A stretch of DNA of 41,880 bases. Source: Leptolyngbyaceae cyanobacterium CSU_1_3. GTDB taxonomy: Bacteria > Cyanobacteriota > Cyanobacteriia > Leptolyngbyales > Leptolyngbyaceae. The DNA lies in contig JAAUOZ010000029.1 of NCBI GenBank assembly GCA_012034655.1, positions 1-41,880 of the forward strand, read 5' to 3'. Under the pieces are notes generated by a model that made no database searches, was not told where the DNA came from, and saw only the letters and a list, made by a program, of their open reading frames with translations. A program made the position numbers and the translations under genes. Of the stretch, positions 8,372-34,780 are shown one piece after another; within the stretch, counting starts at the first letter, position 1; every line of letters starts with the position of its first letter.

Positions 8372-9563
8372 GTGACTTCCCAGAAGGATCAAACTCAGGC
8401 CCTCATTGACGAGATTGATGGTTCTCTACAAAAAGTGATTTCCCGTCTCCCTTGGGCTGCAAGCGGCCAGATCACGCAACAGCGCCACCTCTTGCAGCGC
8501 ATTCGTAGCTATCTGGTGATGCAGCAACGATCGCTCGTCCGACAACAGCGCCCCTCCGATCCCTCTGAGGTCACTGCAAAACAGGTCATGCAGTCGGTTG
8601 TGCAAGATATGAACGATCTGCGCTCTAGTTTGCTCAAACCTTTGCAGTCTGAAGTGGCAACTTTAACGCAGCAAAGGGGCGCTCTAATTCGCGAGATCCG
8701 CCAGCTAGAAGCACACCGACAAAGCTACCTGCTAGAGCAAACGCCTACGATCGTCCCCGCCCAAAACACGGAACAGTTGCAGAAAGCTCACGAGCAGACT
8801 GACCAGGTTCTCACGACGCTCGATACCACCCTGAGAGTCGTCTTTGAGTCGCTACAGCAAGACATTCAAGCCTATCAAGACTCCCTTTCTCAAGGACTCG
8901 ACAAGCTACATGGGCTGGGGCAACAGGGGGAAGTTATGTTTACAACCCTGGTCAATCGGCTGGCAGAACAGCTAGGGCGAGAAGCCTCCACCTATCTTCA
9001 CTCTCAGACATCCCCAGACTTACCAGAAGCTAAGATCGATCCCCAAAGGTCTCTACCCAGAAACTCAACCGAATCTGCTAAGATTTCGCTGCCCTACCCT
9101 GGCACAGAAATGTCTACAGGTCGCTCCGAAGGGATCGTCCCTCAGCCACCCGAAGCTCCCTCAAATCCGCCTGACCCTTCAGAGACAATCAGCACACTGA
9201 CTGAGCTTCTAGAACAACTATCGCCCGAAGCCAGCCCGCCGCCCCATGTGATTTCGGTAATGCCTCCCGCGATCGACCCCACCTCCGGTATGCGTCCGTC
9301 AGATATACGAACGCTGGCAGAAGCAACCTATACCCCAGACGAAAATCTGCTGCCGCCCCCGATTGCTGAGAGTGCCGAAGTCTGAGCCCCTAAAACTTGA
9401 CTCAACGACGCTCAACCAACTCAGCCAAGACCTCTCTAACCTCGATCGGGTCGAGGATGTATCCGCCTCGGTTGAACCTCCAGCCCCGCGCGCCGCCAAG
9501 CACAATTCGATTTTTAACCTGGAAGGAATGGACGATTTATTTGTGGAAGATCCTCCCCGCTAA
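8372..9563 (+). pseudogene. Coiled-coil cyanobacterial protein, C-terminal tail in a shifted frame
   Basis: The first part (to 9385) is a Gln-rich, largely helical protein with probable coiled coils (for instance residues about 70-130 and 140-200 of the product), then a Pro/Ser-rich linker. The best start is GTG at 8372: AAGGA lies 7 bp upstream and the product begins VTSQKDQTQALIDEID. An in-frame GTG at 8312 has no such site. The frame stops at 9385, but the next frame continues without interruption to 9563 with LKLDSTTLNQLSQDLSNLD and ends NLEGMDDLFVEDPPR, an acidic tail of the kind I recall from cyanobacterial homologues. One extra base between 9356 and 9385, perhaps in the C5 run at 9356-9360, would explain the split. 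Function is unknown; no membrane segment is seen. Confidence 0.65.
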
Positions 9564-9577
9564 ACCTGAACCACAGG

Positions 9578-9613
9578 GCGTAATGCAGTGCTCGGCCGAG
9601 CACTGCATTACGC
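9578..9613. repeat. 36-bp perfect palindrome
   Basis: The sequence from 9578 to 9613 is a perfect loop-free inverted repeat centred on CTCGG/CCGAG, with 18 bp in each arm. It sits 14 bp after the stop of the coiled-coil gene. As RNA it would fold into a strong hairpin, so it may act as a terminator, but no T-run follows (ACAAATATC). It could also be a protein-binding dyad or a small dispersed repeat. Confidence 0.85.
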
Positions 9614-9750
9614 ACAAATATCAGATCTTCACAAAAGTCTCAGGCAGTTCAAAGATTGAGCAAATGCACAGGTTTTCGCTAACACTGGGCAGGTGCGGGT
9701 GAATATAGTGGTTTGGTGAGGTCAACCTTTGAGAAAACCGGCTGCAACCT

Positions 9751-10470
9751 GTGATTACGACCACTGAGATTCCTTCACCTCTGTATTCTGCTTTGCTTGA
9801 ACGCGCTAAGGACATAAACGTTTCTGCTTCAGAATTGCTGACCCCGATCGAGGCAGAACCCCTCCATCCCTCTGTCAGCAGCAAAATCAAACGACTGATT
9901 GATATCGTTGGAGCGCTGGTTGGCTTGTCGATTACAGCCCTGATTGCCATCCCAGTCGCGATCGCCATCCAAATTGATAGCCCCGGCTCCGTCTTCTACA
10001 GTCAGACGCGCTGCGGAGTGAAGGGTCGCCCCTTCCGCATCTGGAAATTTCGCTCAATGGTCAATGACGCAGACCAACTCAAGCACCTCGTCAAAAATCA
10101 AGCTAAGGGCAACATCTTCAAAAGCAAGAATGACCCACGCATCACCCGCATCGGCGCATTTCTCCGTCGCACCAGCTTAGATGAGCTTCCTCAGTTTTGG
10201 AATGTGCTCAGAGGCGAGATGAGTATGGTTGGAACTCGCCCCCCTACCCTAGATGAAGTCAGTAAATATAAGCCTCACCACTGGCAACGCCTCAACGTCA
10301 AACCTGGCATTACTGGCGAGTGGCAAGCTAACGGTCGATCGACCGTCACCGACTTTGAGGACGTTGTAAAGCTCGATTTGGCCTATCAGAATAAATGGTC
10401 GGTCAGCTACGACCTGCAACTGATTTTGAAAACAATTTGGGTCGTTCTCAACAAGCACGGTGCTTGCTAG
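9751..10470 (+). CDS. Bacterial sugar transferase (priming glycosylphosphotransferase for exopolysaccharide)
   Basis: The 239-residue protein matches the catalytic half of WcaJ/WbaP-type enzymes. It has one N-terminal membrane segment (about 49-75, DIVGALVGLSITALIAIPVA), then the cytoplasmic catalytic domain with FRIWKFRSM, DPRITRIGAFLRRTSLDELP and the QFWNVLRGEMSMVGTRPP signature. These enzymes move a sugar phosphate from a nucleotide sugar to undecaprenyl phosphate and so begin lipid-linked polysaccharide assembly. The short form lacks the extra N-terminal membrane domain of full WcaJ. The start is a GTG at 9751 without a clear ribosome site; the next gene is pgsA behind a terminator. It is separate from, but may serve, the polysaccharide genes at 22978-26454. 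Confidence 0.9.
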   Translation: MITTTEIPSPLYSALLERAKDINVSASELLTPIEAEPLHPSVSSKIKRLIDIVGALVGLSITALIAIPVAIAIQIDSPGSVFYSQTRCGVKGRPFRIWKFRSMVNDADQLKHLVKNQAKGNIFKSKNDPRITRIGAFLRRTSLDELPQFWNVLRGEMSMVGTRPPTLDEVSKYKPHHWQRLNVKPGITGEWQANGRSTVTDFEDVVKLDLAYQNKWSVSYDLQLILKTIWVVLNKHGAC

Positions 10471-17300: not shown

Positions 17301-18203
17301 ATGACCACTAGGACGATCGAGCGTGTCCCCAGAAAGCTCTGGTTTGCGGCGATTAAGCCTCCTATGTACAGTGTGGCAGTGATGCCAATTTGGGTGGGGT
17401 CTGCTGTCGCCTTTGCAGAAACAAGCCATTTTAATTCCTCAATCTTCTTTACATTTTTAGTCTCTGCCATTTTGATTCTTGCCTGGGAAAATCTCAGCAA
17501 TGATGTGTTTGACTCAGAAACAGGCGTGGATGTCAATAAGAAAAATTCCCTGGTCAATATGACGGGTAATAAATCGCTGATTTTTTGGATTGGCAACCTT
17601 TGTCTGGCACTGGGCTTGGTGGGGATCGGCTCGATCGCTCTCCAGCAAGAAGATTGGACGGTGATTGGGTTGATTTTGCTGTGCTGTGGAATCGGCTACA
17701 TCTACCAAGGTCCGCCATTTCGCCTTAGTTACAAAGGGTTGGGTGAGATTCTCTGCTTTTTTGCCTTTGGGCCGCTGGCTTTTTCGGCGGCATACTATAG
17801 CCAGACGCAAGCTTGGTCAAGCGTGAGCATGGCGGCATCGGTGGTAATTGGCATTGCCACCAGCTTGATTTTGTTTTGTTCGCATTTCAACCAGGCCAAA
17901 GAAGATGCGGCGATCGGCAAAAAATCTCCGATTGTCCGGTTGGGGACGCGGCGATCGGCGGATCTTCTACCGTGGATTTGCAGCAGCATCTACGCCCTGA
18001 CGACGTTGTTTGTGATCCTGGGTGCGTTTCCGATCTGGACGCTGCTAGTTTTTGCTAGTGTGCCGATCGCTCGCAGACTGTGCCAGTTTATTCGCTCTCA
18101 ACACGACCAACCCCACAAGCTCACGTTCTGTCGCCTGATTGCCGTCGAGCTACACTTTTGGGCGGGGTTGCTGCTGGGCTTGGGCTTTGTGCTGCCAGGA
18201 TGA
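17301..18203 (+). CDS. menA: 1,4-dihydroxy-2-naphthoate prenyl/phytyltransferase
   Basis: A 300-residue UbiA-superfamily membrane protein with about eight or nine hydrophobic segments. The first Asp-rich motif is NLSNDVFDSETGVD (about 72-85) and the second region holds NQAKEDAAIGKKSPIVRLG (about 198-216). In cyanobacteria MenA attaches a phytyl or other prenyl chain to 1,4-dihydroxy-2-naphthoate with loss of CO2, leading to phylloquinone, the A1 acceptor of photosystem I. AGGAG lies 8 bp before ATG 17301. menC follows with a start only 5 bp after the stop, and menE overlaps menC, so the three form one operon. The tandem repeat at 17214-17275 sits in the promoter or leader. Confidence 0.95.
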   Translation: MTTRTIERVPRKLWFAAIKPPMYSVAVMPIWVGSAVAFAETSHFNSSIFFTFLVSAILILAWENLSNDVFDSETGVDVNKKNSLVNMTGNKSLIFWIGNLCLALGLVGIGSIALQQEDWTVIGLILLCCGIGYIYQGPPFRLSYKGLGEILCFFAFGPLAFSAAYYSQTQAWSSVSMAASVVIGIATSLILFCSHFNQAKEDAAIGKKSPIVRLGTRRSADLLPWICSSIYALTTLFVILGAFPIWTLLVFASVPIARRLCQFIRSQHDQPHKLTFCRLIAVELHFWAGLLLGLGFVLPG

Positions 18204-18207
18204 TGAA

Positions 18208-19170
18208 GTGGTGATTCAGTTCGAGTTTCGCCCCTATCGTCGTCCCTTTCGGTCAGCGTTGCAGACGAGTCACGGCTTGTGGAGCGTGCGAGAAGGGATT
18301 ATTTTGCGATTTCTCAAGGCTGGCAAAGTCAGCTTTGGCGAAATTGCACCCTTGGAGTGGTTTGGCTCAGAAAGTTTTGAGCAAGCCATAGATTTCTGTC
18401 AGCAGTGGTCTGGGGAAATCGATGCAGAAATGGTTTTGAGCATTCCAGATCATCTCCCAGCCTGTCAATTTGGCTTCTCGGTGGTAGAAAATTTAGAGGC
18501 AAATATCGCGAATAATAATATCGCGAATAATAATAGTTGGGTAAATTCTACGATCGCGGCTCTCCTTCCAACCGGAGAAAAGGCCCTAGAAGCTTGGCAA
18601 AATCTTTGGCAGCAAGGCCATCAAACCTTCAAGTGGAAAATTGGCATCGCTCCGATTCAAGATGAACTCAGGCTCTGCGATCGACTCATCAAAACTTTGC
18701 CGCCCGATGCCCGATTGAGATTAGATGCAAACGGTGGACTCAATTACTTAGAAGCAGAGCAATGGCTCAAAATTTGCGATTCAACCAACATTGAATTTTT
18801 AGAACAGCCGCTTCCCATTCATCAGTTTGATCAAATGTTGGCATTGGGTCAAAAATATTCTACGCCCTTAGCGATCGATGAATCTGTTGCCACCCTCAGC
18901 CAACTAGAAGATTGCCACCAAAAGGGCTGGCGCGGAATTTTTGTGATCAAACCAACGATTGCAGGCTTTCCATCTCGGTTGCGAAAATTCTGTAACACCC
19001 ATCAGATTGATGCCGTCTTCTCTTCTGTTTTTGAAACCGCGATCGCACGACAAATTGGATTGCAACTCGCCGCCGAATTAAACTACAAAAATCGTGCGAT
19101 TGGATATGGAACCACCCACTGGTTTGACAGCTTATTGGAAGAAGGCGATCGTTTATGGCAACTCCTCTAA
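18208..19170 (+). CDS. menC: o-Succinylbenzoate synthase
   Basis: A 320-residue enolase-superfamily enzyme that dehydrates SHCHC to o-succinylbenzoate in the phylloquinone/menaquinone pathway. The catalytic and metal residues are seen in order: Lys in FKWKIG, Asp in LRLDANGGL, Glu in IEFLEQPLP, Asp in LAIDESVATL and Lys in VIKPTIAG. The frame is open from 18139, but GTG 18208 is preferred: AGGA lies 7 bp upstream, the product begins VVIQFEFRPYRRPF as in relatives, and it avoids overlap with menA. It contains a 15-bp direct repeat that adds the low-complexity stretch NIANNNIANNN. Its end overlaps the start of menE by 16 bp. Confidence 0.94.
   Translation: MVIQFEFRPYRRPFRSALQTSHGLWSVREGIILRFLKAGKVSFGEIAPLEWFGSESFEQAIDFCQQWSGEIDAEMVLSIPDHLPACQFGFSVVENLEANIANNNIANNNSWVNSTIAALLPTGEKALEAWQNLWQQGHQTFKWKIGIAPIQDELRLCDRLIKTLPPDARLRLDANGGLNYLEAEQWLKICDSTNIEFLEQPLPIHQFDQMLALGQKYSTPLAIDESVATLSQLEDCHQKGWRGIFVIKPTIAGFPSRLRKFCNTHQIDAVFSSVFETAIARQIGLQLAAELNYKNRAIGYGTTHWFDSLLEEGDRLWQLL
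18502..18531 (+). repeat. 15-bp tandem duplication inside menC
   Basis: AATATCGCGAATAAT occurs twice in direct succession. As 15 is a multiple of three, the frame is kept and the protein gains the repeated NIANN. It lies in a loop region before the lid-barrel junction and probably does not harm the enzyme. Confidence 0.9.
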
Positions 19171-20576
19171 TTCATCTTTTACAGCGCAGCCAAGAAGACT
19201 GGCTGATCGGCTATAGCACTCAAAAATTAATTCATTTAACTCAGGCACACTATCAAGAAATTACGCCACAAACTCAAACAATTCTGTTAGCTGAACGCGA
19301 TCCAATTTGTTTTTTAGCTGGTTTTATCGCTGCCTGCTCAACAAATGCTCAAATTTTTCTCTGTAACCCTGACTGGGTACAACAGGAGTGGCAACAAGTT
19401 TTTGCACTAGTCCAACCTGACCTAATTTGGGGCGACGTGGCCAAACATTGGAGAGTCGATCGCCAAACAAACCAAAAAACAAATGGGCTAGGTGAGAAAT
19501 TTGTGCCCTTTACAAATCAATCATCCCCAAAATCCGCCGCCCAATTCGCCACCATCATGATCCCCACAGGGGGCACATCGGGCAAAATTCGATTTGCGAT
19601 GCACACTTGGTCAACCCTGACCGCTTCAGCCCAGGGGTTCAAGACCTATTTTGAGGTCGATCGTGTTCATTCTTGCTGCGTGCTGCCGCTCTATCACGTC
19701 AGTGGCTTAATGCAATTTATGCGCTCCTTCACCTCTGGTGGCAAGTTGGCGATTTTGCCCTGGAGAGCGATCGCCACTCAGGCAACCTCAGCCATTGACC
19801 CGCAAGAGTTCTTCCTTTCCCTCGTCCCTACGCAGCTTCAGCAACTTCTCCTGGTTGCTCCTTTGCTTGCTCAATTTAGAACAATTTTGCTAGGTGGCGC
19901 ACCCGCCTGGCCAGAGTTACTTAAGGAGGCACAAGCACTCCAGTTAGCGATCGCCCCCACCTACGGCATGACCGAAACTGCCTCCCAAATCGCCACCCTC
20001 AAACCAGAAGATTTTTTGAGAGAACAGTACAACTGCGGGCTGCCCCTGCCCCACGCCCAAATCACCATCCGCAGCACCACCGGCCAAATATTAGAAGCGG
20101 GACAGATTGGCAGAATTATAATCCAATCAGATTCACTGATGTTGGGCTACTATCCCCATCTGCTAAACAGGTCAACCTATGAACCCGACGATCTAGGATT
20201 TTTGGACTCTCAGGGCTACCTGCATATTGTTGGACGCAACAGCAACAAAATTATCACTGGCGGCGAAAACGTCTTTCCCTCTGAGGTCGAAGCTGCAATT
20301 TTTGCCACAAAAATGGTCAGAGATGTCTGCGTAGTCGGCATCTCTGACCCGATTTGGGGGCAAATTGTTGCAGCAGTTTATGTATCTAACCCGATCGTTC
20401 CCAGTGAGAAGTTAGCGAGCGCCCTAGAAGGAAAACTCAGCAAATTTAAGCATCCCAAATGTTGGGTGGCGATCGCGGCTCTACCACGCACTGCCCACGG
20501 CAAAATCAACCTCGACCAACTCCGGCAGATCATCGCAACGAAGACTGATAGGCCAACGACTCTTGCCAAAGCTTGA
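19155..20576 (+). CDS. menE: o-Succinylbenzoate--CoA ligase
   Basis: A 473-residue adenylate-forming (ANL superfamily) ligase. The P-loop reads TIMIPTGGTSGKIRFAMHTW (about 132-151), the A5 motif is APTYGMTETASQIA, the hinge region has YLHIVGRNSNKIITGGENVF and the C-terminal lysine lies in RTAHGKINLDQL. MenE activates o-succinylbenzoate with ATP and joins it to CoA before ring closure by MenB. It overlaps menC by 16 bp and shares its operon with menA and menC. menB, menD, menF and menH are not in the window. Its 3' end overlaps by 47 bp the end of a small convergent gene. Confidence 0.95.
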   Translation: MATPLIHLLQRSQEDWLIGYSTQKLIHLTQAHYQEITPQTQTILLAERDPICFLAGFIAACSTNAQIFLCNPDWVQQEWQQVFALVQPDLIWGDVAKHWRVDRQTNQKTNGLGEKFVPFTNQSSPKSAAQFATIMIPTGGTSGKIRFAMHTWSTLTASAQGFKTYFEVDRVHSCCVLPLYHVSGLMQFMRSFTSGGKLAILPWRAIATQATSAIDPQEFFLSLVPTQLQQLLLVAPLLAQFRTILLGGAPAWPELLKEAQALQLAIAPTYGMTETASQIATLKPEDFLREQYNCGLPLPHAQITIRSTTGQILEAGQIGRIIIQSDSLMLGYYPHLLNRSTYEPDDLGFLDSQGYLHIVGRNSNKIITGGENVFPSEVEAAIFATKMVRDVCVVGISDPIWGQIVAAVYVSNPIVPSEKLASALEGKLSKFKHPKCWVAIAALPRTAHGKINLDQLRQIIATKTDRPTTLAKA

Positions 20577-25791: not shown

Positions 25792-26454
25792 TTGCCAGGA
25801 GTAGAAACTATTGTGGGACAGACAGAATCCTTGCACTTAACAGGTTCAGAAGAGGCAGCTTCAACAGATCTGACTCCACCTGTTTTAGATGCGAAGCCGT
25901 TAGTCGATTTGCGAACCTACGACCAAGCCAACTTCGATCGCGGTCGTCCTGGTTGGTATGTGCTGCTGTGGTGGCTAGTGCAGGCGATCGCTTTCCCCCT
26001 GACTCCCCACCCGCTCAACTCAGTCAGATGTGGGCTGTTGCGCCTCTTTGGTGCGCGAATTGGCAAGGGAGTTCTGATTCGTCCAACGGCTCGGTTCACT
26101 TACCCCTGGAAGGTTCAGATTGGTGACTGTAGCTGGATTGGGGATGATGTAGTTTTCTATAGTCTCGATCGTATTCAGTTGGGCGAGCACTGCGTGGTTT
26201 CTCAGAAAACCTATCTTTGTACTGGAAGCCATGACATTCAAGACCAAAACTTCAGATTGCAGATTGCTCCGATCGCAATTGGTAACGGTGCATGGGTCGC
26301 GACGGATTGCTTTATTGCTCCGGGGGTAGAGATTGGAGCTAATGCGGTGGTGGGAGCACGGAGTAGTGTTCTCAAATCGCTACCCGCGCAGCAAGTGTGT
26401 TGGGGTACGCCGTGCCGTCCTCGCTACGCCAGAGAAGTTAGGACGATTCAGTAG
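25792..26454 (+). CDS. WcaF/HpsU-type acetyltransferase (left-handed beta-helix)
   Basis: A protein of up to 220 residues with hexapeptide repeats in its C-terminal half: IGDCSWIGDDVVF, LGEHCVVSQKTYLCTGSHDI, IGNGAWVATDCFIAPGVEIG. The family, named putative colanic acid biosynthesis acetyltransferase WcaF or hormogonium polysaccharide acetyltransferase HpsU in cyanobacteria, O-acetylates sugars from acetyl-CoA. The N-terminal 40 residues are acidic and probably disordered. The start is open to doubt: TTG 25792 lies right after the GT2 stop codon, while GTG 25813 has AGGAG 11 bp upstream. The gene belongs with the GT2 and GT4 genes before it. Its end overlaps the convergent chorismate lyase gene by 17 bp. 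Confidence 0.87.
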   Translation: MPGVETIVGQTESLHLTGSEEAASTDLTPPVLDAKPLVDLRTYDQANFDRGRPGWYVLLWWLVQAIAFPLTPHPLNSVRCGLLRLFGARIGKGVLIRPTARFTYPWKVQIGDCSWIGDDVVFYSLDRIQLGEHCVVSQKTYLCTGSHDIQDQNFRLQIAPIAIGNGAWVATDCFIAPGVEIGANAVVGARSSVLKSLPAQQVCWGTPCRPRYAREVRTIQ

Positions 26455-27058
26455 AATCAGGTTGCATGGAGCCGAGATATTTCTGTAAATAGGGTGAAAA
26501 CACCTCATAAATCAGGGTAAGAGGTTGGCCATGATGCCAGAAGAGATAGTGTCTTCCCCAAAAAGGACCAGGCTGTCCGAAGGCTTCTTCTAGAGCAGCA
26601 GAATGTCCACAGTAGATACCCTTTAAGTCTCGGTATAGCTCTAGACGGGCAAGGCTAGTCCAAACCGGGATGGAGCGATTCTTCAGATATTCGTCTACGT
26701 GGCTTTGTTCCCACCAGGAAGTTGCGTAGGCTAACCGTTGTCCAGAGGTGGTTCTTAGCCAAACCTGTCTGCGTAAACGAGGAGCGGGAACCATTTCTAC
26801 GACTTTGGGGGCGTTATCGTCCGCAAGACCGATCGCCGACATATCAATCACATCTACCTCAGTTGGCTCGCCCGTCAGCAGTTGTAGGTGGCGAGTCGGG
26901 GAACCATCCCCCAGGATCAACATTTGCCAGGGAGGGGCCAACTGGCTGTGGGGCAAGCCTTGCTGAATATCGCGATCGCTGCCTTCCCAAATTAGATCGA
27001 GGGAATGCCAGGTGGTTGGCAGTAGAACGCCATCAGTGAGTCTAAGTGTGGCAGTCAA
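26438..27058 (-). CDS. Chorismate lyase (4-hydroxybenzoate synthase), cyanobacterial type
   Basis: A 206-residue protein resembling the cyanobacterial chorismate pyruvate-lyase family (Sll1797 of Synechocystis). The conserved core is LLTGEPTEVDVIDMSA (about 61-76), followed by RRQVWLRTTSGQRLAYATSW and the C-terminal GRHYLFWHHGQPLTLIYEVF. It cleaves chorismate to 4-hydroxybenzoate and pyruvate, giving the head group of plastoquinone. It is a cytoplasmic soluble enzyme. The start is the first ATG of the frame. A dispersed repeat hairpin at 27162-27197 and divergent petG lie upstream. The family match is recalled from sequence pattern, not from a search. Confidence 0.85.
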   Translation of the reverse strand: MTATLRLTDGVLLPTTWHSLDLIWEGSDRDIQQGLPHSQLAPPWQMLILGDGSPTRHLQLLTGEPTEVDVIDMSAIGLADDNAPKVVEMVPAPRLRRQVWLRTTSGQRLAYATSWWEQSHVDEYLKNRSIPVWTSLARLELYRDLKGIYCGHSAALEEAFGQPGPFWGRHYLFWHHGQPLTLIYEVFSPYLQKYLGSMQPDSTESS

Positions 27059-27523: not shown

Positions 27524-28942
27524 TTAATCGGTCAAAGTGCTGGGGTGGCTCGTGCTTCTCGTCTCTTCTGCGCCACAGAGGTGTTGCAAAATCAAGCTGT
27601 AAACATCAGGCGCTTGCAGAGTCTCTGTATGCAGGAATTCTGACTGATGGGTAATCACGATCGGAGCATCTGCCAAGGAGGTGGGCAATCCACCGTGGGA
27701 ACCGCGAATCAGCCTTGCATCTAGAGGAATCACATCCAACAGGGTGCGGAAGCCTAGCTTCTTCTTGGCCAGTGTGGAAGCAATTTTTAGTTTAGGGAGT
27801 TTTAGCTTGGGGTCGATCACCATTTCTACTGGGTCATAGCCTGGTTTGCGGTGAATATCGACGGTGCGAGCGAAATCGGGGGCGCGATCGTCGTCGAGCC
27901 AATAATAGTAGGTGAACCAGGCATCAGGCTGAGCGATCGCCACCCGTTCTCCAGCGCGCGCATGATTGAGGTGATAGGCTCGTTTGCCGTCCTCGTCTAA
28001 GACTTGAGCAACACCGTCTACCTGTTCCAGCAACGCCTGAACCTTGGGCAACACGTCTAAATCGTTGACATAAATGTGAGCAAGCTGGTGGTCTGCTACT
28101 GCAAAGGCTTGGCTTGCCCCAGCATCGAGCAGTTCGCGTCCGAGTTCTTCGCGTACCGCCAGCAGTCCTGCTTCTCGCAGAACTCGATTGAGATGCACAG
28201 GTTTGGACACGGGTGTAATTCCATATTCTGACAGAACTATTACCTGCGCTCCTCTTGCTTCGTAAAACTCGATCAGATCGCCACAGACTGCATCAATTTC
28301 TTGCAAATCTTGAGCGATTGTTTGGGGATCAGAACCCACCTTTTGGCAGCAGTAATCCAGGTGAGGTAAGTAAACCAGCGTCAGTGTGGGGCTGTGGCGT
28401 TCTTCGACCCACCGGGCAGAGTTTGCAATCCACTGACTTGACTCGATCGACGTAGCAGGGCCCCAAAACTTAAATAGAGGAAACTGTCCGAGGTCTGCCT
28501 GAAGCTGGGGGCGGAGGTTGGCAGGGTGAGTGTTGATGTCAGGTAACTTGCGACCGTCGGCGGGGTACATCGGTCGCGGTGTAACCTCGATGTCTGCGGT
28601 AGAGTACATGTTGTACCACCAAAATAGGTTGGCGCAGGTAAAGGTGGGGTCGAGCGATCGAGCAACATCCCAGACCTTGGGAGACTGCACCAGATGATTA
28701 GACTGCCGCCAAAATCTGATTTCGCTCTCGTCTCGAAAGTACCAACCATTGCCCACGATGCCGTGTTCAGAGGGATATTTACCCGTTAGATAGGTGCTCT
28801 GAACGGTGCAAGTGACAGCGGGCAAGACGGGCGTAATGGTCGCCCGTTTTCCTTGAGTTGCCCATTGAGAAAGGCGTGGGGTGTGTGCTCCCAAGAGTCT
28901 AGATGTCAGCCCAACAACATTCAGAACTACTGTTTTTTGCAT
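27524..28942 (-). CDS. eboF: EboF, alkaline-phosphatase-superfamily phosphodiesterase-like protein
   Basis: The 472-residue protein resembles nucleotide pyrophosphatase/phosphodiesterases: PVLPAVTCTVQSTYLTGKYP followed by SEHGIVGNGWYFRD holds the nucleophile Thr/Ser region, LPHLDYCCQK an Asp-His metal site, LSEYGITPV a second, and GSHGG a third. The usual first Asp (DG in the opening strand) is replaced by VVGL, as I recall for this subfamily. In cyanobacterial ebo operons this is the sixth gene. I prefer ATG 28942 (MQKTVVLNVVGLT) to the longer open frame, because the region upstream contains a dispersed repeat also found at 12126-12148. A 295-bp gap with a tandem repeat separates it from eboE. 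Confidence 0.85.
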   Translation of the reverse strand: MQKTVVLNVVGLTSRLLGAHTPRLSQWATQGKRATITPVLPAVTCTVQSTYLTGKYPSEHGIVGNGWYFRDESEIRFWRQSNHLVQSPKVWDVARSLDPTFTCANLFWWYNMYSTADIEVTPRPMYPADGRKLPDINTHPANLRPQLQADLGQFPLFKFWGPATSIESSQWIANSARWVEERHSPTLTLVYLPHLDYCCQKVGSDPQTIAQDLQEIDAVCGDLIEFYEARGAQVIVLSEYGITPVSKPVHLNRVLREAGLLAVREELGRELLDAGASQAFAVADHQLAHIYVNDLDVLPKVQALLEQVDGVAQVLDEDGKRAYHLNHARAGERVAIAQPDAWFTYYYWLDDDRAPDFARTVDIHRKPGYDPVEMVIDPKLKLPKLKIASTLAKKKLGFRTLLDVIPLDARLIRGSHGGLPTSLADAPIVITHQSEFLHTETLQAPDVYSLILQHLCGAEETRSTSHPSTLTD

Positions 28943-28959
28943 CGATTTTCTTATAGTAT

Positions 28960-28982
28960 TTTGGACTTTAGAGTTGCGATTT
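28960..28982. repeat. Dispersed 23-bp repeat upstream of eboF
   Basis: Identical to positions 12126-12148 over 23 bp, followed in both copies by a related TTTAGAATC/AGATTCTAAA-type stretch. It covers the apparent N-terminal extension of eboF and so argues against a longer protein. Confidence 0.85.
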
Positions 28983-29165
28983 AAGAGTTTAGAATCCCAA
29001 GGGCCGAAAGGGACTGAAGCAGCATCGATCGTCCTCATTCCTTAAATTGGTATCAAACTTTGTGGTATCAAACTTTTTAAAAGAATTTTCACCCCTTTCC
29101 CAATCCGTCAATTAAAGTTTGACAGACTACTAGTAGAATGCGGCGTAAGTTTGGCAACCACTGGA

Positions 29166-29207
29166 GGGTTTAGGGTGTGGGGTTTAGGGTGTGGGGTTTA
29201 GGGTGTG
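29166..29207. repeat. 14-bp tandem repeat, three perfect units
   Basis: GGGTTTAGGGTGTG occurs three times head to tail, followed by a partial GGGTTTTGGGGG. It resembles telomere-type G-rich repeats and may form G-quadruplexes on the plus strand. It lies in the eboE-eboF gap. Confidence 0.95.
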
Positions 29208-29237
29208 GGGTTTTGGGGGAGAGTTGGTGGATTTCAG

Positions 29238-30488
29238 CTAAGTGCTACTAGGAGGACGATCGCTACCTTCCCCCATTACCGACAACACCCACTCATATTC
29301 GCGCTGAATCGAAGTCAGAATATCGAACTTCATCTCAGGCGGCAGCACATCCCAGGTGTAGGTTTCAATCTCCAAATGGTGGCAAGCAGGATGGGTTTGC
29401 AGCAGCTTTAACAGGGCTGTGATGTCTGCCTGAGTCGATTGAAATACCTGATAGGTTTCGATGAAAATCGGGACGTGAAAGTGGGTGCGCCACTCTTGGG
29501 CAGCAGTTTGCTCCAGTTCTGCTAGGGCAAGAATGAGATCGGGAGAATGGTGTAGCGTGCCGTCGGTGTGGCGTTTGATCACCTGATGCAGGTAGGTCGA
29601 TTCGGCAAAGGGCTGAAGGCGATCGCCCAAAAATTGCCGTTTGTCTGCGTCGTGGGGAATCTGCATTTTCAGGGCAGCGCTCAGTTGCACCTTGCCAATC
29701 TGAATTCCTGCCTGGTGAAACTGCTCTAAAACAGTGTGTGGTTGCTCATATTCCACCGCAAAGTGGCAGGTGTCGTAACAGATGCGGATGTGGTCTCGCA
29801 GGTGTCTTTCTGCCAAGCTCTGAGAGATTTCTAAATGGTTGGCTAACCAGACTCCGCCCACAGGCAAAAGCCAGTCTCGAAAGAAAGCGACAACTTCTGC
29901 TGTGTTTTCGAGCAAGCCATCTGGTTCGGGTTCTAGATCAAGGTGCAGCAGCTTGCCTGTGGTTTGGCGAATCTGCACCATAGCGGCAGCGATCGTTGCC
30001 ACGTGGTGGGTGCTGGCTTGCATGACTGTTTTCTGTTGCTCAGGTTGCCCAGCCCACCAGGGTTTGTAGGACAAAGGCAGGGTCGAAATGCCTCCGTCTA
30101 CGCCATCTAGGAGCAGGGCCGTCAGAATGTGGGTCAGGCGCAGGGTGTAATCGAGGCGATCGCGCTGCGACCAATCGGGAGCGTAGACATGATCTTTGAC
30201 CACCTGCTGGTGAAACCCTCCGTAGGGAAAGCCGTTGAGTGTGAAGACATAGAGGTTTTGCTCGTGCAGCCAGGCTTGTAGCTCAGAGAGGCGATCGCCC
30301 TCCAGCAGTTCTCGACTCGCTCGATCGGACAATCGTAGACCCACACCAAACGGTGCACTGGGAGAAAGTCGCTGCTTTAGCTCTGGCAGATATTGCTTGA
30401 GGTTGGCGGATATCTCTGTCCAGCTTTCGCCGGGATGGATGTTGGTGCAGTAAGTGAGGTGAAGTTCCCCGTTTGTGCCGATTTTCAT
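29238..30488 (-). CDS. eboE: EboE, TIM-barrel metabolite traffic protein
   Basis: A 416-residue protein of the sugar-phosphate isomerase/AP-endonuclease-like TIM-barrel type. The start MKIGTNGELHLTYCTNIHPG is the typical EboE opening. Barrel-like blocks include LYVFTLNGFPYGGFH, LLHLDLEPEPDG, ICYDTCHFAVEYEQP and IGKVQLSAALK, whose Glu, Asp, His residues could bind a metal. NCBI-style naming for this family is 'metabolite traffic protein EboE'. In Nostoc the ebo genes are needed to get the scytonemin monomer to the periplasm; the reaction of EboE is not known. It follows eboD by 137 bp on the same strand. Confidence 0.92.
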   Translation of the reverse strand: MKIGTNGELHLTYCTNIHPGESWTEISANLKQYLPELKQRLSPSAPFGVGLRLSDRASRELLEGDRLSELQAWLHEQNLYVFTLNGFPYGGFHQQVVKDHVYAPDWSQRDRLDYTLRLTHILTALLLDGVDGGISTLPLSYKPWWAGQPEQQKTVMQASTHHVATIAAAMVQIRQTTGKLLHLDLEPEPDGLLENTAEVVAFFRDWLLPVGGVWLANHLEISQSLAERHLRDHIRICYDTCHFAVEYEQPHTVLEQFHQAGIQIGKVQLSAALKMQIPHDADKRQFLGDRLQPFAESTYLHQVIKRHTDGTLHHSPDLILALAELEQTAAQEWRTHFHVPIFIETYQVFQSTQADITALLKLLQTHPACHHLEIETYTWDVLPPEMKFDILTSIQREYEWVLSVMGEGSDRPPSST

Positions 30489-30625
30489 AGAATGCTGAGG
30501 GTTGGGGATAGGGTAGCAATGCTCGGCGTAAGTTTTACTACCACTTAACTGGGGGAAGGATTGCCTTTGGCAGGCGATGCGAGAGGGAGGAGAAAGAGGG
30601 ATAGGTTCCCGACTTCTAGTGATGA

Positions 30626-31837
30626 TTAGAATGTTTGCAGGAGGGCGATCGCTTGCTGGTAGAGAGTCAGATCGACCTCGTGAACTTCGATGCCCCTGCC
30701 GATCTCTGACAACAGGGTGAGGGTCAATTCGCCACCCAAATGTTCGCGAAATTCGCCTAATCCTCGAAAAATTGATTCTGGATGATCGGGCTGATCTAAG
30801 TAATTGTCTAGTTCGGGCACATAAAGTTTGAAGCCCAATTCTTGTAAGGTTTCTAGCACTCGCTTCCAGGCAAAGGGTGAGAGCAACCCCAGCAGAAAAG
30901 CGTAGGTGGTGTCGAGGGCAATGCCAATGGCGACCGCTTCACCGTGACGCAGAGCGTAATGGGTGAGATGCTCTAGCCGATGGGCTGCCCAATGCCCAAA
31001 ATCAAGCGGGCGCGATGACCCCATCTCAAAGGGATCGCCGTAATTGCCAATGTGGTTGAGATGGTGGCTGGCACAGTGATAGATTAGCTGCTGCATGGCG
31101 GCCATGTTGCGTTGGGCTAGCTCTGTCGCGTGGGTTTCGATGAAGTCAAAAAACTTAGCATCTTTGATCAGGGCGACTTTGATGGCCTCGGCAATGCCCG
31201 ATCGCCAGTCGCGATCGTCCAAGGTAGTCAAAAAGTTGAAATCATTGAGTACGATCGTCGGCGGGGCGAAGGTTCCCAGAAAATTCTTTTTGCCAAAGGC
31301 ATTGATGCCATTTTTTACTCCAATGCCTGAGTCATTCTGGGCCAAAACCGTTGTTGGCACACGAATCAGCCGGATGCCTCGATGGGCAGTTGCCGCCGCA
31401 TAGCCAGCCATATCCAGCACGGCCCCACCGCCGATCGCCATTACAGAAGAGTGGCGACACAATCCTACTTGCTCGACGGTTTGGTGAATCAGGTTTACCC
31501 AATCTGGGCTGTTTTTTACTGATTCGCCCCCCGGAACAATCACGGGTTCGCCTGCCAGGGTGAGCGCGTCTGCATGAAATCTGACGTATTCTCGAATTTG
31601 AGCCAGTAGATGAGAATGAGACTGAACTACTCCCGCATCTATAACCACCAGCACTCGCTTGGGATCTTCTGTCCGATCGGAGTTAACTGCCTGCGCCAAA
31701 AGCAGATTCTCGGTTTGAAACAATCCACTTGTGAAGTGGACATCGTAGGTGAATGTCACCGTCAGACTTTGGTGCAGAGGTTGCGGCGCTGGAAGCGCGG
31801 TGACAATGTTAGGGCGCAGGGTTGTTAAATTCATCAT
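30626..31837 (-). CDS. eboD: EboD, 3-dehydroquinate-synthase-like cyclase
   Basis: A 403-residue member of the sugar phosphate cyclase superfamily (dehydroquinate synthase, 2-epi-5-epi-valiolone synthase and relatives). The NAD-binding loop reads VMAIGGGAVLDMAGYAAATA, the substrate/metal region PTTVLAQNDSGIGVKNGIN, Glu in SGIAEAIKVALIKD, and the zinc His residues in HWAAHRLEHLTHY and LRHGEAVAIG. It is not the housekeeping AroB but the ebo-specific paralogue, identified by its place between eboC and eboE. The true substrate is unknown. It starts 27 bp after the eboC stop, consistent with one operon. Confidence 0.93.
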   Translation of the reverse strand: MMNLTTLRPNIVTALPAPQPLHQSLTVTFTYDVHFTSGLFQTENLLLAQAVNSDRTEDPKRVLVVIDAGVVQSHSHLLAQIREYVRFHADALTLAGEPVIVPGGESVKNSPDWVNLIHQTVEQVGLCRHSSVMAIGGGAVLDMAGYAAATAHRGIRLIRVPTTVLAQNDSGIGVKNGINAFGKKNFLGTFAPPTIVLNDFNFLTTLDDRDWRSGIAEAIKVALIKDAKFFDFIETHATELAQRNMAAMQQLIYHCASHHLNHIGNYGDPFEMGSSRPLDFGHWAAHRLEHLTHYALRHGEAVAIGIALDTTYAFLLGLLSPFAWKRVLETLQELGFKLYVPELDNYLDQPDHPESIFRGLGEFREHLGGELTLTLLSEIGRGIEVHEVDLTLYQQAIALLQTF

Positions 31838-31864
31838 TCGGAGTCGAGAGTTGGGGATAAGGGA

Positions 31865-32821
31865 CTAAGTAACCGCAAAAATCTGCGCCAATTTTCTAGA
31901 AATAGGGAGCAAACTGAGAACCAGCAAACCATATAGCCAGTGGGTAAACCCAGCAGCGATCGCAGCATCTAGCACAATCAGCGAAAGAATCCCTGATTTG
32001 ACGGCGGCCCGAATCAAGTCAGGTTGGGGATTAACGGTGGCCCGGAGAAAAGCGGGAACCACTAACCCAGCAAACAGCGCTATAAAAGGCAACTCGTTCC
32101 CCAAATAATAATTAGGCAAAAAGCCCAGACCTAGAGCGCCTCCCAGCACCGCAGCCAACATCACCAGCGATAGAATGCCAGTCTGCCGCTTGCCCCCGTG
32201 GACTTCTCCTTGACTAATCGCAGTGATCGCGGCGATGTAGGCGATCGACCCCAGCGCCAAAAACCACCGATCCATCACCTCGGCTGAGATCACACTCACA
32301 CCCAGGAGCAGGTTGGCTCCTCGACACAGACCCATGTTCACCGGGCCCAAGATGGCGTTGTGTTTGCTAAAAGCGTCATAGAGTAGGGCGGCGATCGCCA
32401 CAAACCCCGCCAACCCAGCACTCACCCATGACACCTGAGCCGCTGCCACCCCAGCCAGCACCAAAAGAGCCACCCCCAGCCCGATCGCCCCCCGACGCGA
32501 GGCGCGACCGCTTGGCAACGGCCGTTCGGGACGCTCTACAGCATCTATGTCTGCATCAAAAAGGTCGTTAAACACCACGCCGCCGCCATATAGCCCCGTG
32601 GTCGCCAACAGCAGCCAAGCGATCGCCATCCCGTGACTGAAGTTGAGTCCTCCGATCAGTGGCGTTGCCCAGCTTTCTGCCGACGGGAAACTCAACGCCA
32701 CGACTGCGCCCGAAGCCGCGTAGCCTACTAAAATATCTGCCCACGCCGTCAAAATATTGGCAGGGCGCATCATTTGCAAATAAGCCCAAAACTGCTCAGA
32801 TTTGATGTTGGCAGCGGTCAT
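31865..32821 (-). CDS. eboC: EboC, UbiA-like prenyltransferase-family membrane protein
   Basis: A 318-residue membrane protein with about eight or nine hydrophobic segments. The first UbiA Asp motif is VFNDLFDADIDAVERPERPL (about 84-103). The second region reads ALLYDAFSKHNAILGPVNMG with CRGAN following; it keeps only one Asp of the usual DxxxD, so full prenyltransferase activity is uncertain. In ebo operons this gene lies between eboB and eboD as here, with gaps of 42 and 27 bp. Its substrate is not known; a lipid-linked carrier or prenylated product is a common suggestion. Confidence 0.93.
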   Translation of the reverse strand: MTAANIKSEQFWAYLQMMRPANILTAWADILVGYAASGAVVALSFPSAESWATPLIGGLNFSHGMAIAWLLLATTGLYGGGVVFNDLFDADIDAVERPERPLPSGRASRRGAIGLGVALLVLAGVAAAQVSWVSAGLAGFVAIAALLYDAFSKHNAILGPVNMGLCRGANLLLGVSVISAEVMDRWFLALGSIAYIAAITAISQGEVHGGKRQTGILSLVMLAAVLGGALGLGFLPNYYLGNELPFIALFAGLVVPAFLRATVNPQPDLIRAAVKSGILSLIVLDAAIAAGFTHWLYGLLVLSLLPISRKLAQIFAVT

Positions 32822-32863
32822 GTTTCACCCTCAGATTGCTCAGATTGCTCAAATTTCTCTTGC

Positions 32864-33805
32864 CTACTCAATCAGCAAGGCTGATAGATCGGCCGTCTGA
32901 AAAGGCTTGTCCTGGGTGACAGGTTCTTGCCCCCGCAGAACTGAGTTGCCACTAAAAAGCTGTCGCTGATCGACCGAAGGCGGATTTAACCAGTCTTCTG
33001 CGCTCATTTCACCACTTTGGCTGTAGGCTGTCAGCGCATTCTCATAGCAAACCGCCCGCACATGAGCCTCTGAAATTCCCATCTCTCGCATCAACTCAGC
33101 CGTTTTGGGTACAGCTAAGGGATCGCTCATGCCCCAATCCGCAGCACTATCGACGATGATCCGATCGCAGCCATAGTGACGAACGATTTCTGCCATGCGG
33201 CGATTGCCCATTTTGGTGTGGGGATAGATCGAGAAGGCAGCCCAAAACCCGCGATCGAGAATCTCTTGGGCGGTTTCCTCATTGGCGTGATCGACAATCA
33301 CCAAAGCCGGATCGATCCCATGCTCTTGGCATACATCCATGCTGCGAGTCGTGCCTTCCTTTTTGTTGCGGTGGGGGGTGTGAATCAGCACTGGTTTTTC
33401 GACTTCTTTGGCCAGTTCTAGCTGCAAGCGAAAGGCTTTATCTTCGGCGGCGGTCATTTCGTCATAGCCAATTTCACCGATCGCGACGACCCCTTCTTTG
33501 CCCACATAAAGGGGCAGCAACTCTAGCACCTGCTCTGCCAGAGCTTCGTTGTTTGCTTCTTTGGGATTGAGGGAAATCGTACAGTAGTGCCGAATGCCAA
33601 ACTGCCCGGCCCGAAACCGTTCCCATCCCACTAGACTATTGAAGTAGTCTTGAAATGTGCCGACACTGGTGCGAGGCTGCCCCACCCAAAAAGAAGGCTC
33701 AATCACTGCCACTATGCCATACTGCCGCATTACCGTGTAGTCGTAGGTGGTGCGGGTGGTCATGTGGACGTGGGGATCGATAAACAATAGGTTGTCAGTC
33801 AGCAT
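32864..33805 (-). CDS. eboB: EboB, TatD-family metal-dependent hydrolase
   Basis: A 313-residue amidohydrolase-superfamily TIM barrel. The metal ligands are all visible: HxH in FIDPHVHMTTRTT (near the N-terminus), Glu in VAIGEIGYDEMT, His in PVLIHTPHRNK, His in VIVDHANEETA and Asp in RIIVDSAADWG. TatD relatives are nucleases or hydrolases; the ebo member's substrate is not known. I choose ATG 33805 (MLTDNLLFIDPH), 15 codons inside the open frame, because it matches the family N-terminus. It follows eboA after a 74-bp gap that carries a tandem repeat. Confidence 0.92.
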   Translation of the reverse strand: MLTDNLLFIDPHVHMTTRTTYDYTVMRQYGIVAVIEPSFWVGQPRTSVGTFQDYFNSLVGWERFRAGQFGIRHYCTISLNPKEANNEALAEQVLELLPLYVGKEGVVAIGEIGYDEMTAAEDKAFRLQLELAKEVEKPVLIHTPHRNKKEGTTRSMDVCQEHGIDPALVIVDHANEETAQEILDRGFWAAFSIYPHTKMGNRRMAEIVRHYGCDRIIVDSAADWGMSDPLAVPKTAELMREMGISEAHVRAVCYENALTAYSQSGEMSAEDWLNPPSVDQRQLFSGNSVLRGQEPVTQDKPFQTADLSALLIE

Positions 33806-33870
33806 GGTCTCAGAGGTAAGTGGGCAGAGGCAGGAATCTTGAGCGCGCACGACAAAGGGCAGAGGTCAAG

Positions 33871-33912
33871 AACTTTTGGCTAAAAACTTTTGGCTAAAAA
33901 CTTTTGGCTAAA
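33871..33912. repeat. 14-bp tandem repeat across the eboA stop codon
   Basis: AACTTTTGGCTAAA occurs three times without a mismatch. The eboA stop codon (33880-33882) lies in the first unit and the C-terminal codons (KFLAKSF) are written by the units. As 14 is not a multiple of three, a change in copy number would change the C-terminus. Confidence 0.95.
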
Positions 33913-34780
33913 GTGTGCCCAGGTCATCTGACCCGATCGGATCTCGGTGTGCAGATGGGGGTGCTGCGCTAGCAGGGCTTGGGCTTGGGGTAGCGCAGAC
34001 TGGGCACAGGCTAGGGCGGCGGCGGTTTGCTGAATTGCATCTGGTTCGCTAAAGACGCGCTCTAGATCGGCAACTGTTTGGTCGTTGAGGAAGGGGCCGA
34101 TCGGTCGCCAAAGTTCGGGTGTCACTGGGCGTTTTGCTGCCCAGCGTTCGTGAGCATAATCAGATAGCATCCTCGCCAGTTCGGGATTCGATCGCTGATC
34201 CAGTCCCCAAATTTGGTGCAGCGGGCTACCCACAAACAGCGCCTTCAGCACCATCTGGTTCCAGGCTGGAGTGTCAAATTGCTCGGCAGGATAGGGATTG
34301 TGAAGGGCGATGGCGTTGAATACCGCAGACATGTTGCTCCGAATGCCTTCGGCGGCGCGAGCCTGCAAACAGTTTGCGTGAGGAAGGAGCGGAAAGCTTT
34401 GGTAGAGAGCCACTGTCTCGCTGACATCGGCGGTCGCAAACAGTTGCTCTAATTTTTTGGTAATGCGCGGTGTCTGTGTGGGGCAAGCTCAACAAAACCA
34501 GGGTGCGCCCCGCTTGATCGATGCTCCAATTTTGCGGCAACCACCCCGGACGCAGCATTTCTGCCATTTCTAAGTCTTCAGGGGTCAGCGTCAGATCTTG
34601 CTTGCCCAGCCGTCGGGGCATGGTGCTGAACGTGGTAAACAGTAGCTGCTCTGAGGAGTTTTGCTCTAATTGGGTCAGCTTTTCTTGGAGCCAATCGGCT
34701 TGAGATTGAGACTGGCGCACTACCCAAGAGTAGAGGGCGTTTCTGATTTGGAGCCGATTTTCAGAATTGTCTACGGACAT
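33880..34780 (-). pseudogene. eboA: EboA, first gene of the ebo operon, split by a frameshift
   Basis: The N-terminal part starts at ATG 34780 (MSVDNSENRLQIRNALYSWV) and reads well to LLSLPHTDTAHYQK. The C-terminal part continues in the neighbouring frame: LEQLFATADVSETVALYQSF then HANCLQARAAEGIRSNMSAV. The frames join as HYQKLEQLFATADVSE if one base is removed from the six-T run at 34453-34458 (A-run on the coding strand). The combined product of about 299 residues is a typical helical EboA protein (DUF, no known fold assigned by me). It heads the operon eboA-B-C-D-E-F, all on the minus strand, with the promoter presumably in 34781-35426. The frameshift may be a base-calling error. Confidence 0.88.

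Follow-up and report, generated by a model that had tools for sequence, protein, structure and literature searches.

Published accounts (PMC6529634, PMC6282210, PMC9796282) have the cyanobacterial ebo genes immediately following the scytonemin core, on its downstream side, in most of the strains that they compare, and note that ebo extends far past the scytonemin makers. In Nostoc punctiforme, the scytonemin monomer stays in the cytoplasm upon deletion of any of five ebo genes, eboD not being among them (PMC6282210). Expression of eboE in that organism is not raised by UVA at 48 h and is raised by high light, scyA and trpB are raised by both, and the authors infer a later role for eboE (PMC8879130). 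This sole organism with one-by-one ebo deletions makes scytonemin, and the cited papers treat cyanobacterial ebo as a part or a satellite of the scytonemin operon. Here we describe an ebo operon on contig JAAUOZ010000029.1 of Leptolyngbyaceae cyanobacterium CSU_1_3 (assembly GCA_012034655.1); the whole stretch analysed, 41,880 nucleotides long, is referred to as the window. We class the locus as an ebo operon whose eboA is broken; it belongs to a known operon family and, as a single locus, is ordinary. What is noteworthy is that cyanobacterial ebo operons occur mostly without ScyC, appear to have moved as a block and have a counterpart in Streptomyces, which makes the question of the ebo product testable in strains free of scytonemin (scy) genes.

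All six ebo families stand in the order A-B-C-D-E-F on the minus strand, as an earlier note on this DNA had read them. Profile searches assigned none of the six proteins to other families, and EboC and EboE pass curated cut-offs (Table 1); no curated NCBIfam model for EboB or EboF appeared in the profile search. The same order recurs in 22 of the 31 other loci compared, the remaining nine being rearranged, split, incomplete or truncated by contig ends. As the families match and the order recurs, chance is ruled out as the source of this gene set. Among the 32 loci compared are the window itself, a locus of Niabella (L003) and a locus (L004) from the same genome (G316) as L051; an EboC-based search of named genomes for related loci gave two, those of Leptolyngbya sp. 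SIO4C1 and Niabella sp. In the window, eboB, eboC, eboD, eboE and eboF are each one open frame, and the intergenic gaps amount to 29 (A-B), 42 (B-C), 27 (C-D), 137 (D-E) and 199 (E-F) bases. The operon cannot be called complete, as it had been at first, because eboA is split across two frames, unlike in all 27 other loci that hold the gene.

No scytonemin pathway was found in the assembly that holds the window (G000; G, C, L and f are our handles for genomes, contigs, loci and families), a draft of 6.3 Mb in 449 contigs from family f1, 93.39% complete and with an estimated contamination of 4.16%. The queries were taken from the cluster adjoining the ebo operon of G290, in which ScyA, ScyB, ScyC, a ScyE-family protein and ScyF are named by curated models. 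Profile searches of G000 gave no match to ScyC and none to the ScyE family. For ScyA there were only relatives at the level of acetolactate synthase, the best at 178.8 bits against a cut-off of 1000, and for ScyB (PF02812) one canonical glutamate-dehydrogenase-type gene at 181.3 bits, with no gene scoring at the roughly 90 bits characteristic of ScyB. The absence of scyA-F, noted before for the window, is thereby extended to the whole assembly for ScyA, ScyB, ScyC and ScyE, and the genome-wide search for scyABC that had been proposed found none by profile. The doubt that the earlier note cast on a scytonemin role is thus well founded; what other product the operon may serve is a part that we infer.

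The same pattern holds across the class. Among 388 genomes drawn evenly from it, EboE is present in 30 and ScyC in seven; six genomes have both, 24 have EboE without ScyC, and one (G141) has ScyC alone. Co-occurrence of the two is nevertheless far above chance (Fisher p 8.6e-7). We found no comparable EboE/ScyC count in the open-access literature, which leaves aside most subscription journals. Two substitutes for the missing pathway were considered and rejected. A ScyA-related enzyme as a scytonemin-like path would have to be found among proteins scoring at best 183.8 bits in the scy-free EboE genomes, against the cut-off of 1000, and a ScyE-family partner is above its cut-off in 9 of 31 genomes, only three of which (G139, G140 and G205) are without ScyC. 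ScyB (PF02812) was searched in the 30 EboE genomes, G141 being left out. Where the side beyond eboA is visible (25 of 30 genomes; five contigs end at or inside the operon), scy genes lie directly beyond eboA only in G290. In G226, the scyC contig and the ebo contig both end beside these genes, so that scyC and ebo may adjoin there.

Three genomes of this survey carry arrangements of their own. In G205, which has no ScyC, a ScyE-family gene (281 bits, contig C4:440882-441937) is separated from the ebo operon by some 3 kb. In G141, a ScyC-ScyA pair occupies 11782-14720 of contig C91 (L155), a 17-kb contig with no ScyB, ScyE, ScyF or ebo genes, and the genome has no EboC and no ScyE above the cut-offs; possibly this pair makes something akin to scytonemin for which no export step is required. 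In G139, positions 3-3157 of contig C54 (L053) hold a 3-deoxy-D-arabino-heptulosonate 7-phosphate (DAHP) synthase fused in frame to EboA as one open reading frame (ORF) of 694 residues with no stop; a trpD-like gene overlaps the start of the fusion ORF at the contig end, a ScyE-family gene lies elsewhere, and there is no ScyC. Both trpD and a DAHP synthase gene are also part of scytonemin operons.

Our preferred reading, which we hold with moderate confidence, is that the product of this ebo operon, with its split eboA and its scy-free assembly, is a prenylated cyclitol lipid that would aid the exit of some other hydrophobic metabolite. In this scheme, a sugar phosphate, by the usual guess sedoheptulose 7-phosphate, would be cyclised by EboD. 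The resulting cyclitol would be modified by EboE and EboB and would receive a prenyl group from EboC in the membrane, and EboF would have a phosphate or diphosphate as its target. EboA, putatively all-helical and solenoid-like, may hold the enzymes together, and the finished lipid would then help to carry a hydrophobic metabolite other than scytonemin out of the cytoplasm.

The individual proteins bear on this scheme to different degrees. EboD reaches 229.6 bits with the aroB model TIGR01357, under its cut-off of 305, and passes NF004852 (cut-off 333), whose title of 3-dehydroquinate synthase we take to be inherited. In an alignment of 31 rows, including the Niabella row and a duplicate, E217, H282, H298, D169, K175, N179 and K220 of EboD are kept in every row, while H259, S275 and D279 (31 of 31) and E365 (97%) replace the K, R, N and K of 26 AroB rows (one of 27 loci was dropped by the motif filter). 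It is unlikely that EboD is simply the housekeeping AroB, given its sub-cut-off score, its differing residues and the presence of a separate AroB above the cut-off in 27 of the 30 EboE genomes; for G000, which shows no AroB above the cut-off, this is less certain. EboC has the digeranylgeranylglyceryl phosphate synthase 6m31 as its best solved match; N85, D86, D89 and D93 of its diphosphate-binding motif NDxxDxxxD, aligned with 6m31, are near-invariant in 29 rows. The best solved match of EboB is 3guw_A (1.5e-22). EboE (set A2: the window, two loci and 39 of the 120 EboE proteins listed) has a sugar-isomerase fold, and by sequence found nothing meaningful in the PDB (best E 0.5). The EboF family is present in all 32 loci; as its relatives mostly have 456-474 residues, the true eboF start may lie inside the ORF as called. 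EboA (set A1: 119 of 240 listed proteins) had no meaningful sequence-profile match in the PDB (best E 0.89), its fold matches falling below the trust level.

The most telling hint at the function comes from plasmids. EboE relatives (below 60% identity) occur on 47 of 72,556 plasmid records, four of which are conjugative and 14 mobilizable by typing, and on none of 50,697 phage records; the organism names shown for these plasmids are non-cyanobacterial. Thirty of the 47 records were listed and 13 inspected. The seven inspected plasmids from outside Streptomyces (Deinococcus, Ketogulonicigenium, Azospirillum, Aureibacter, Salipiger, Mycetohabitans and Roseivivax) all carry EboB, EboD, EboE and EboF together with a prenyltransferase of the UbiA type, and an EboA match is present on six; inositol-3-phosphate synthase is in none of these seven loci, nor in the 32 loci of the neighbourhood comparison. 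In Ketogulonicigenium, genes for two Gfo/Idh/MocA oxidoreductases lead directly into eboD. Five of the six Streptomyces plasmids (L211, L212, L213, L217 and L218) carry EboA, EboB, EboE and EboF homologues with a prenyltransferase of the SCO3242 family and, within the 15-21 kb examined for each, no EboD homologue; an inositol-3-phosphate synthase stands directly before the prenyltransferase (in one unannotated record recognised by sequence). In this Streptomyces lineage, EboD looks to have given way to an enzyme from a different family, one that yields a cyclitol phosphate. We favour a cyclitol product because this synthase takes the place of EboD, because EboD has lost the residues of dehydroquinate synthase and because EboE has the sugar-isomerase fold.

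The surroundings of these plasmid genes can be described as well. In the four annotated Streptomyces loci, a 4'-phosphopantetheinyl transferase and an ABC transporter adjoin, L211 having also a non-ribosomal peptide synthetase, and on the sixth plasmid, L214 (NZ_CP108489.1), the EboE relative stands alone among polyketide-type genes. The range given for the calcium-dependent antibiotic cluster of S. coelicolor takes in both SCO3242 and the inositol phosphate synthase SCO3243 (PMC3610822). Inositol is not mentioned in PMC5133447, and a literature search joining these subjects to ebo returned only a paper without the word "ebo".

One might argue that the operon is concerned with biosynthesis and not with transport, that is, that what is useful is the finished prenylated compound itself, aromatic or cyclitol, and that the scytonemin effect in Nostoc is indirect. 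On one hand, EboC homologues farnesylate quinoline acids in vitro, among them 8-hydroxyquinoline-2-carboxylic acid (PMC9235831), Yurchenko et al. make the case for a compound of the isoprenoid-cyclitol kind (PMC5133447), and the operon is without widely shared neighbours. On the other hand, all five Nostoc deletions tested block the monomer from reaching the periplasm, no gene-specific intermediates turned up in them (PMC6282210), and EboE accompanies ScyC in six of the seven ScyC genomes, the excess over chance given above. We therefore consider this alternative rather unlikely and prefer a lipid that assists export.

The broken eboA raises the question whether the operon works at all in this strain. 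The gene consists of two ORFs in different frames, with the C-terminal similarity beginning at 34464 in a six-frame search, and both parts match NF035937 (195 and 106 bits). Its cut-off of 320 is no usable test here, as intact EboA proteins of five relatives score 222.7-308.4 bits and P0001 scores 337.6. The latter, a 300-residue EboA from a JGI record, is encoded in a single frame and is 94% identical to the longer eboA part of the window. By tblastn, its residues 1-112 match the first frame with 84.8% identity and its residues 102-299 the other frame with 90.9%; as the two frames between them cover residues 1-299 of P0001, no segment of the EboA protein is lost in the window. A mysA-like gene on contig C81 of the same draft is likewise frame-broken, with no run of at least five equal bases nearby, and in another draft, L012, eboB is split. 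Since a 94% identical single-frame EboA exists and the draft has a second frame-broken gene, the eboA break likely stems from an error in the draft assembly or from damage of very recent date. A programmed frameshift is an unlikely explanation, given the single ORF in the 27 other loci and the single frame of this close relative.

Alternatively, the break might be real, with the operon decaying and its remaining genes persisting for now. That eboA is read in two frames speaks for such decay, as does the loss of scytonemin upon deletion of eboA by itself in Nostoc (PMC6282210). However, the two eboA parts remain 85-91% identical to an intact relative over the full length, eboB to eboF are open and keep their conserved residues, and the frame-broken mysA-like gene and the split eboB fit assembly error. 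Decay seems improbable to us.

Table 1. Features of the ebo operon in the window and of a mysA-like gene elsewhere in the same assembly.
Feature	Position	Strand	Description	Evidence
eboF	27524..29038	-	alkaline-phosphatase-superfamily phosphodiesterase/pyrophosphatase, 504 aa as called	PF01663, 209.5 bits
eboE	29238..30488	-	sugar-isomerase-fold TIM barrel, 416 aa	NCBIfam EboE model, 511.9 bits (cut-off 250)
eboD	30626..31837	-	sugar phosphate cyclase, 403 aa	PF01761/PF24621; NF004852, 593 bits
eboC	31865..32821	-	UbiA-type membrane prenyltransferase, 318 aa	NF035940, 385.7 bits (cut-off 250)
eboB	32864..33850	-	TatD-like metal-dependent hydrolase, 328 aa, GTG start	PF01026, 70.2 bits
eboA, C-terminal part (second frame)	33880..34413	-		NF035937 positions 114-218; similarity 34479 to 33886
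eboA, N-terminal part (first frame)	34274..34780	-		NF035937 positions 2-100; similarity 34780 to 34445
eboA, frame-change stretch	34445..34479	-	includes six consecutive A	overlap of the two tblastn pieces
mysA-like gene in two frames, beside mysB-like gene	G000 contig C81 (L156) 8756-9963			

The mysA-like gene also suggests that the operon might serve mycosporine-type sunscreens in this strain. Contig C81 holds mysA-like and mysB-like ORFs, names which we presume, as no curated model gave them. A mysA-like gene is present in 12 of the 30 EboE genomes as compared with 35 of 358 others (p 4e-5) and, among ScyC-negative genomes, in 7 of 24 EboE genomes as compared with 34 of 357 (p 0.0086). 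These p values ignore the relatedness of the genomes, though, 17 of the 24 scy-free EboE genomes have no mysA-like gene, that of G000 is itself frame-broken, and mycosporines are generally intracellular (PMC9796282). A mycosporine role thus has very little probability in our view, in comparison with the export-aiding prenylated cyclitol; the association of ebo with mysA-like genes is retained as a lead to a possible connection with sunscreens in general.

Several points weigh against that preferred reading and need to be put together. G000 is a draft, and scy genes could lie in a gap; moreover, some of the 24 scy-free EboE genomes may be former scytonemin makers, as the case of G139 brings to mind. 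The export role would rest on one organism, itself a scytonemin maker. All enzymatic steps are inferred from family, fold, residues or gene exchange, with the product unseen, and prenylation of quinoline acids by EboC homologues need not involve a cyclitol. The five Streptomyces synthases are 95-99% identical and represent one lineage, and the EboC counterpart found there is merely a distant relative of the EboC in the window, which the curated SCO3242 model scores at 145.4 bits, below its cut-off of 260. G000 has no AroB above the curated cut-off, its two matches being EboD and the mysA-like gene; this gap is probably due to the incomplete assembly. The excess of mysA-like genes in ebo genomes could reflect a shared sunscreen role or merely shared lineages. 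Finally, if the eboA break is real, the operon is probably silent, and the strain may make nothing.

The history of the operon is likely one of movement as a block between cyanobacterial families, judging from the phylogenies. In the rpoB tree, G000 stays in family f1 (Shimodaira-Hasegawa-like approximate likelihood ratio 99), while in the concatenated EboC-F tree support of 100/99 joins it to three genomes of f13, and a pair of further f1 genomes goes with two of f24 at 100/100; one of the f24 pair, G084, adjoins f1 also in the rpoB tree. A single f1 clade is rejected on the concatenation (approximately unbiased test, p 2.45e-65) and by each of the six ebo genes (p 0.0026 to 1.5e-76), tests which draw also on G021 and G272 beyond G000. 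In each of the six gene trees, the shortest path from G000 leads to G316 (f13), and the grouping of G000 with f13 is starred in the B, D and F trees and unstarred in those of A, C and E. The trees (LG+G4, no mixture model) hold 30 rows for F and E, 29 for D and C and 26 for B and A, with only the C-terminal part in the eboA row of the window, and the G316 row of rpoB fills half of the columns. We consider lateral transfer likely because all six genes reject the f1 grouping that rpoB supports. The transfer, if it happened, would be old, as the composition of the ebo stretch fits its host G000 best; it may have run in either direction, and ancient duplication with unequal loss is a possible alternative. 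That the contig is a contaminant from another cyanobacterial family is very unlikely, since, for all the estimated 4.16% contamination of G000 and the grouping of its ebo genes with f13, a check resting on composition gave the 33.5 kb of the window outside ebo a correlation of r 0.895 with other G000 contigs as against 0.79-0.82 with G272, G084 and G021 (f1/f24) and 0.39-0.50 with G164, G235 and G316 (f13), and the ebo stretch itself again fits G000 best (0.738), by a small margin over G084 (0.703), with the f13 trio at 0.44-0.55.

These observations can be brought into a more general idea, which we put forward tentatively and as somewhat doubtful: ebo would be a self-contained, laterally travelling cassette that makes one prenylated cyclitol carrier for the different secreted molecules of its hosts. 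Its ordinary cyanobacterial job would then not be scytonemin, and its customers would include scytonemin makers as well as antibiotic-making Streptomyces, which would have exchanged EboD for an inositol-phosphate synthase. If most cyanobacterial ebo operons stand in genomes lacking scyC, move as a block and share no neighbours, their general function should be sought in scy-free strains. The inositol-phosphate synthase in the place of EboD points biochemists to a prenylated cyclitol, and a defined carrier lipid for small molecules would, if true, be a new kind of bacterial export.

Neighbouring genes were of little help as a functional clue, since those of the window and of its cyanobacterial relatives are mostly ordinary, G139 being the exception. 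When the surroundings of the operon were compared in the 32 loci (stretches of at most 20 kb, and 42 kb in the case of the window), no family beyond the six ebo families is common to more than five loci, and the one at that level includes a response regulator. In the window, a cyanobacterial chorismate lyase (26438-27058, minus strand; NF037993, 281.7 bits) follows eboF on the same strand after 465 bases. The 4-hydroxybenzoate that it produces is a classic UbiA-type substrate, and such a neighbour is found in none of the other ebo loci among the 32 compared. Farther away are the phylloquinone-type genes menA, menC and one for a menE-like AMP-binding enzyme in a row (17301-20576, plus strand) and, at the edge of the window, a TnpB-like protein (212-1378, minus strand; PF01385, PF07282), overlapped by a long opposite-strand ORF (521-1612). 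Promoter and terminator scans of the window gave about as many hits as shuffled controls (7 and 7.9, and 14 and 11.5, respectively). As for unusual loci, positions 4522-12056 of L063 (G122) carry eboCDEF, with no recognisable eboA or eboB within 20 kb and a divergent thiamine-diphosphate enzyme facing them, and L064, from a genome with 8% contamination (G140), has the order D-A-B-E-C-F.

How, then, does this operon compare with the systems described so far? The ebo operons of cyanobacteria, Bacteroidetes and eustigmatophyte plastids (PMC5133447) have the same six families in the order ABCDEF on one strand; they differ from the window, whose eboA is in two frames and whose assembly yielded no scytonemin genes. 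The transfer described in that work is between phyla and into plastids, and here it would be between cyanobacterial families. With Npun_F5232-F5236 of Nostoc punctiforme (PMC6282210), a cluster likewise set apart from the scy genes, the window shares the EboA, EboB, EboC, EboE and EboF families; Nostoc, however, makes scytonemin and has its eboD nearby in the opposite direction, whereas here the operon itself contains eboD and no scy genes were found. Ubi-297/EboC of Maribacter, Zobellia and Algoriphagus (PMC9235831) is of the same EboC family, with an ebo neighbourhood and the aspartate-rich diphosphate-binding motif; unlike EboC of the window, it has been assayed, with quinoline acids. EboD retains the metal ligands and the catalytic core of the superfamily to which AroB and ValA (4p53, DFGH) belong; it departs from AroB in its score and in the four positions named above, one of which, D279, is as in 4p53. 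The EDB ("edible") cluster of Pseudomonas fluorescens, which we liken to the window by its description only, is said to hold a full ebo cluster and is linked to the repelling of nematodes (PMC6282210). The Streptomyces cassette (e.g., NZ_CP107961.1) has, like the window, EboA, EboB, EboE and EboF homologues beside a UbiA-type prenyltransferase; it differs in having inositol-3-phosphate synthase in the operon and no EboD and, in NZ_CP107961.1, in lying near a non-ribosomal peptide synthetase.

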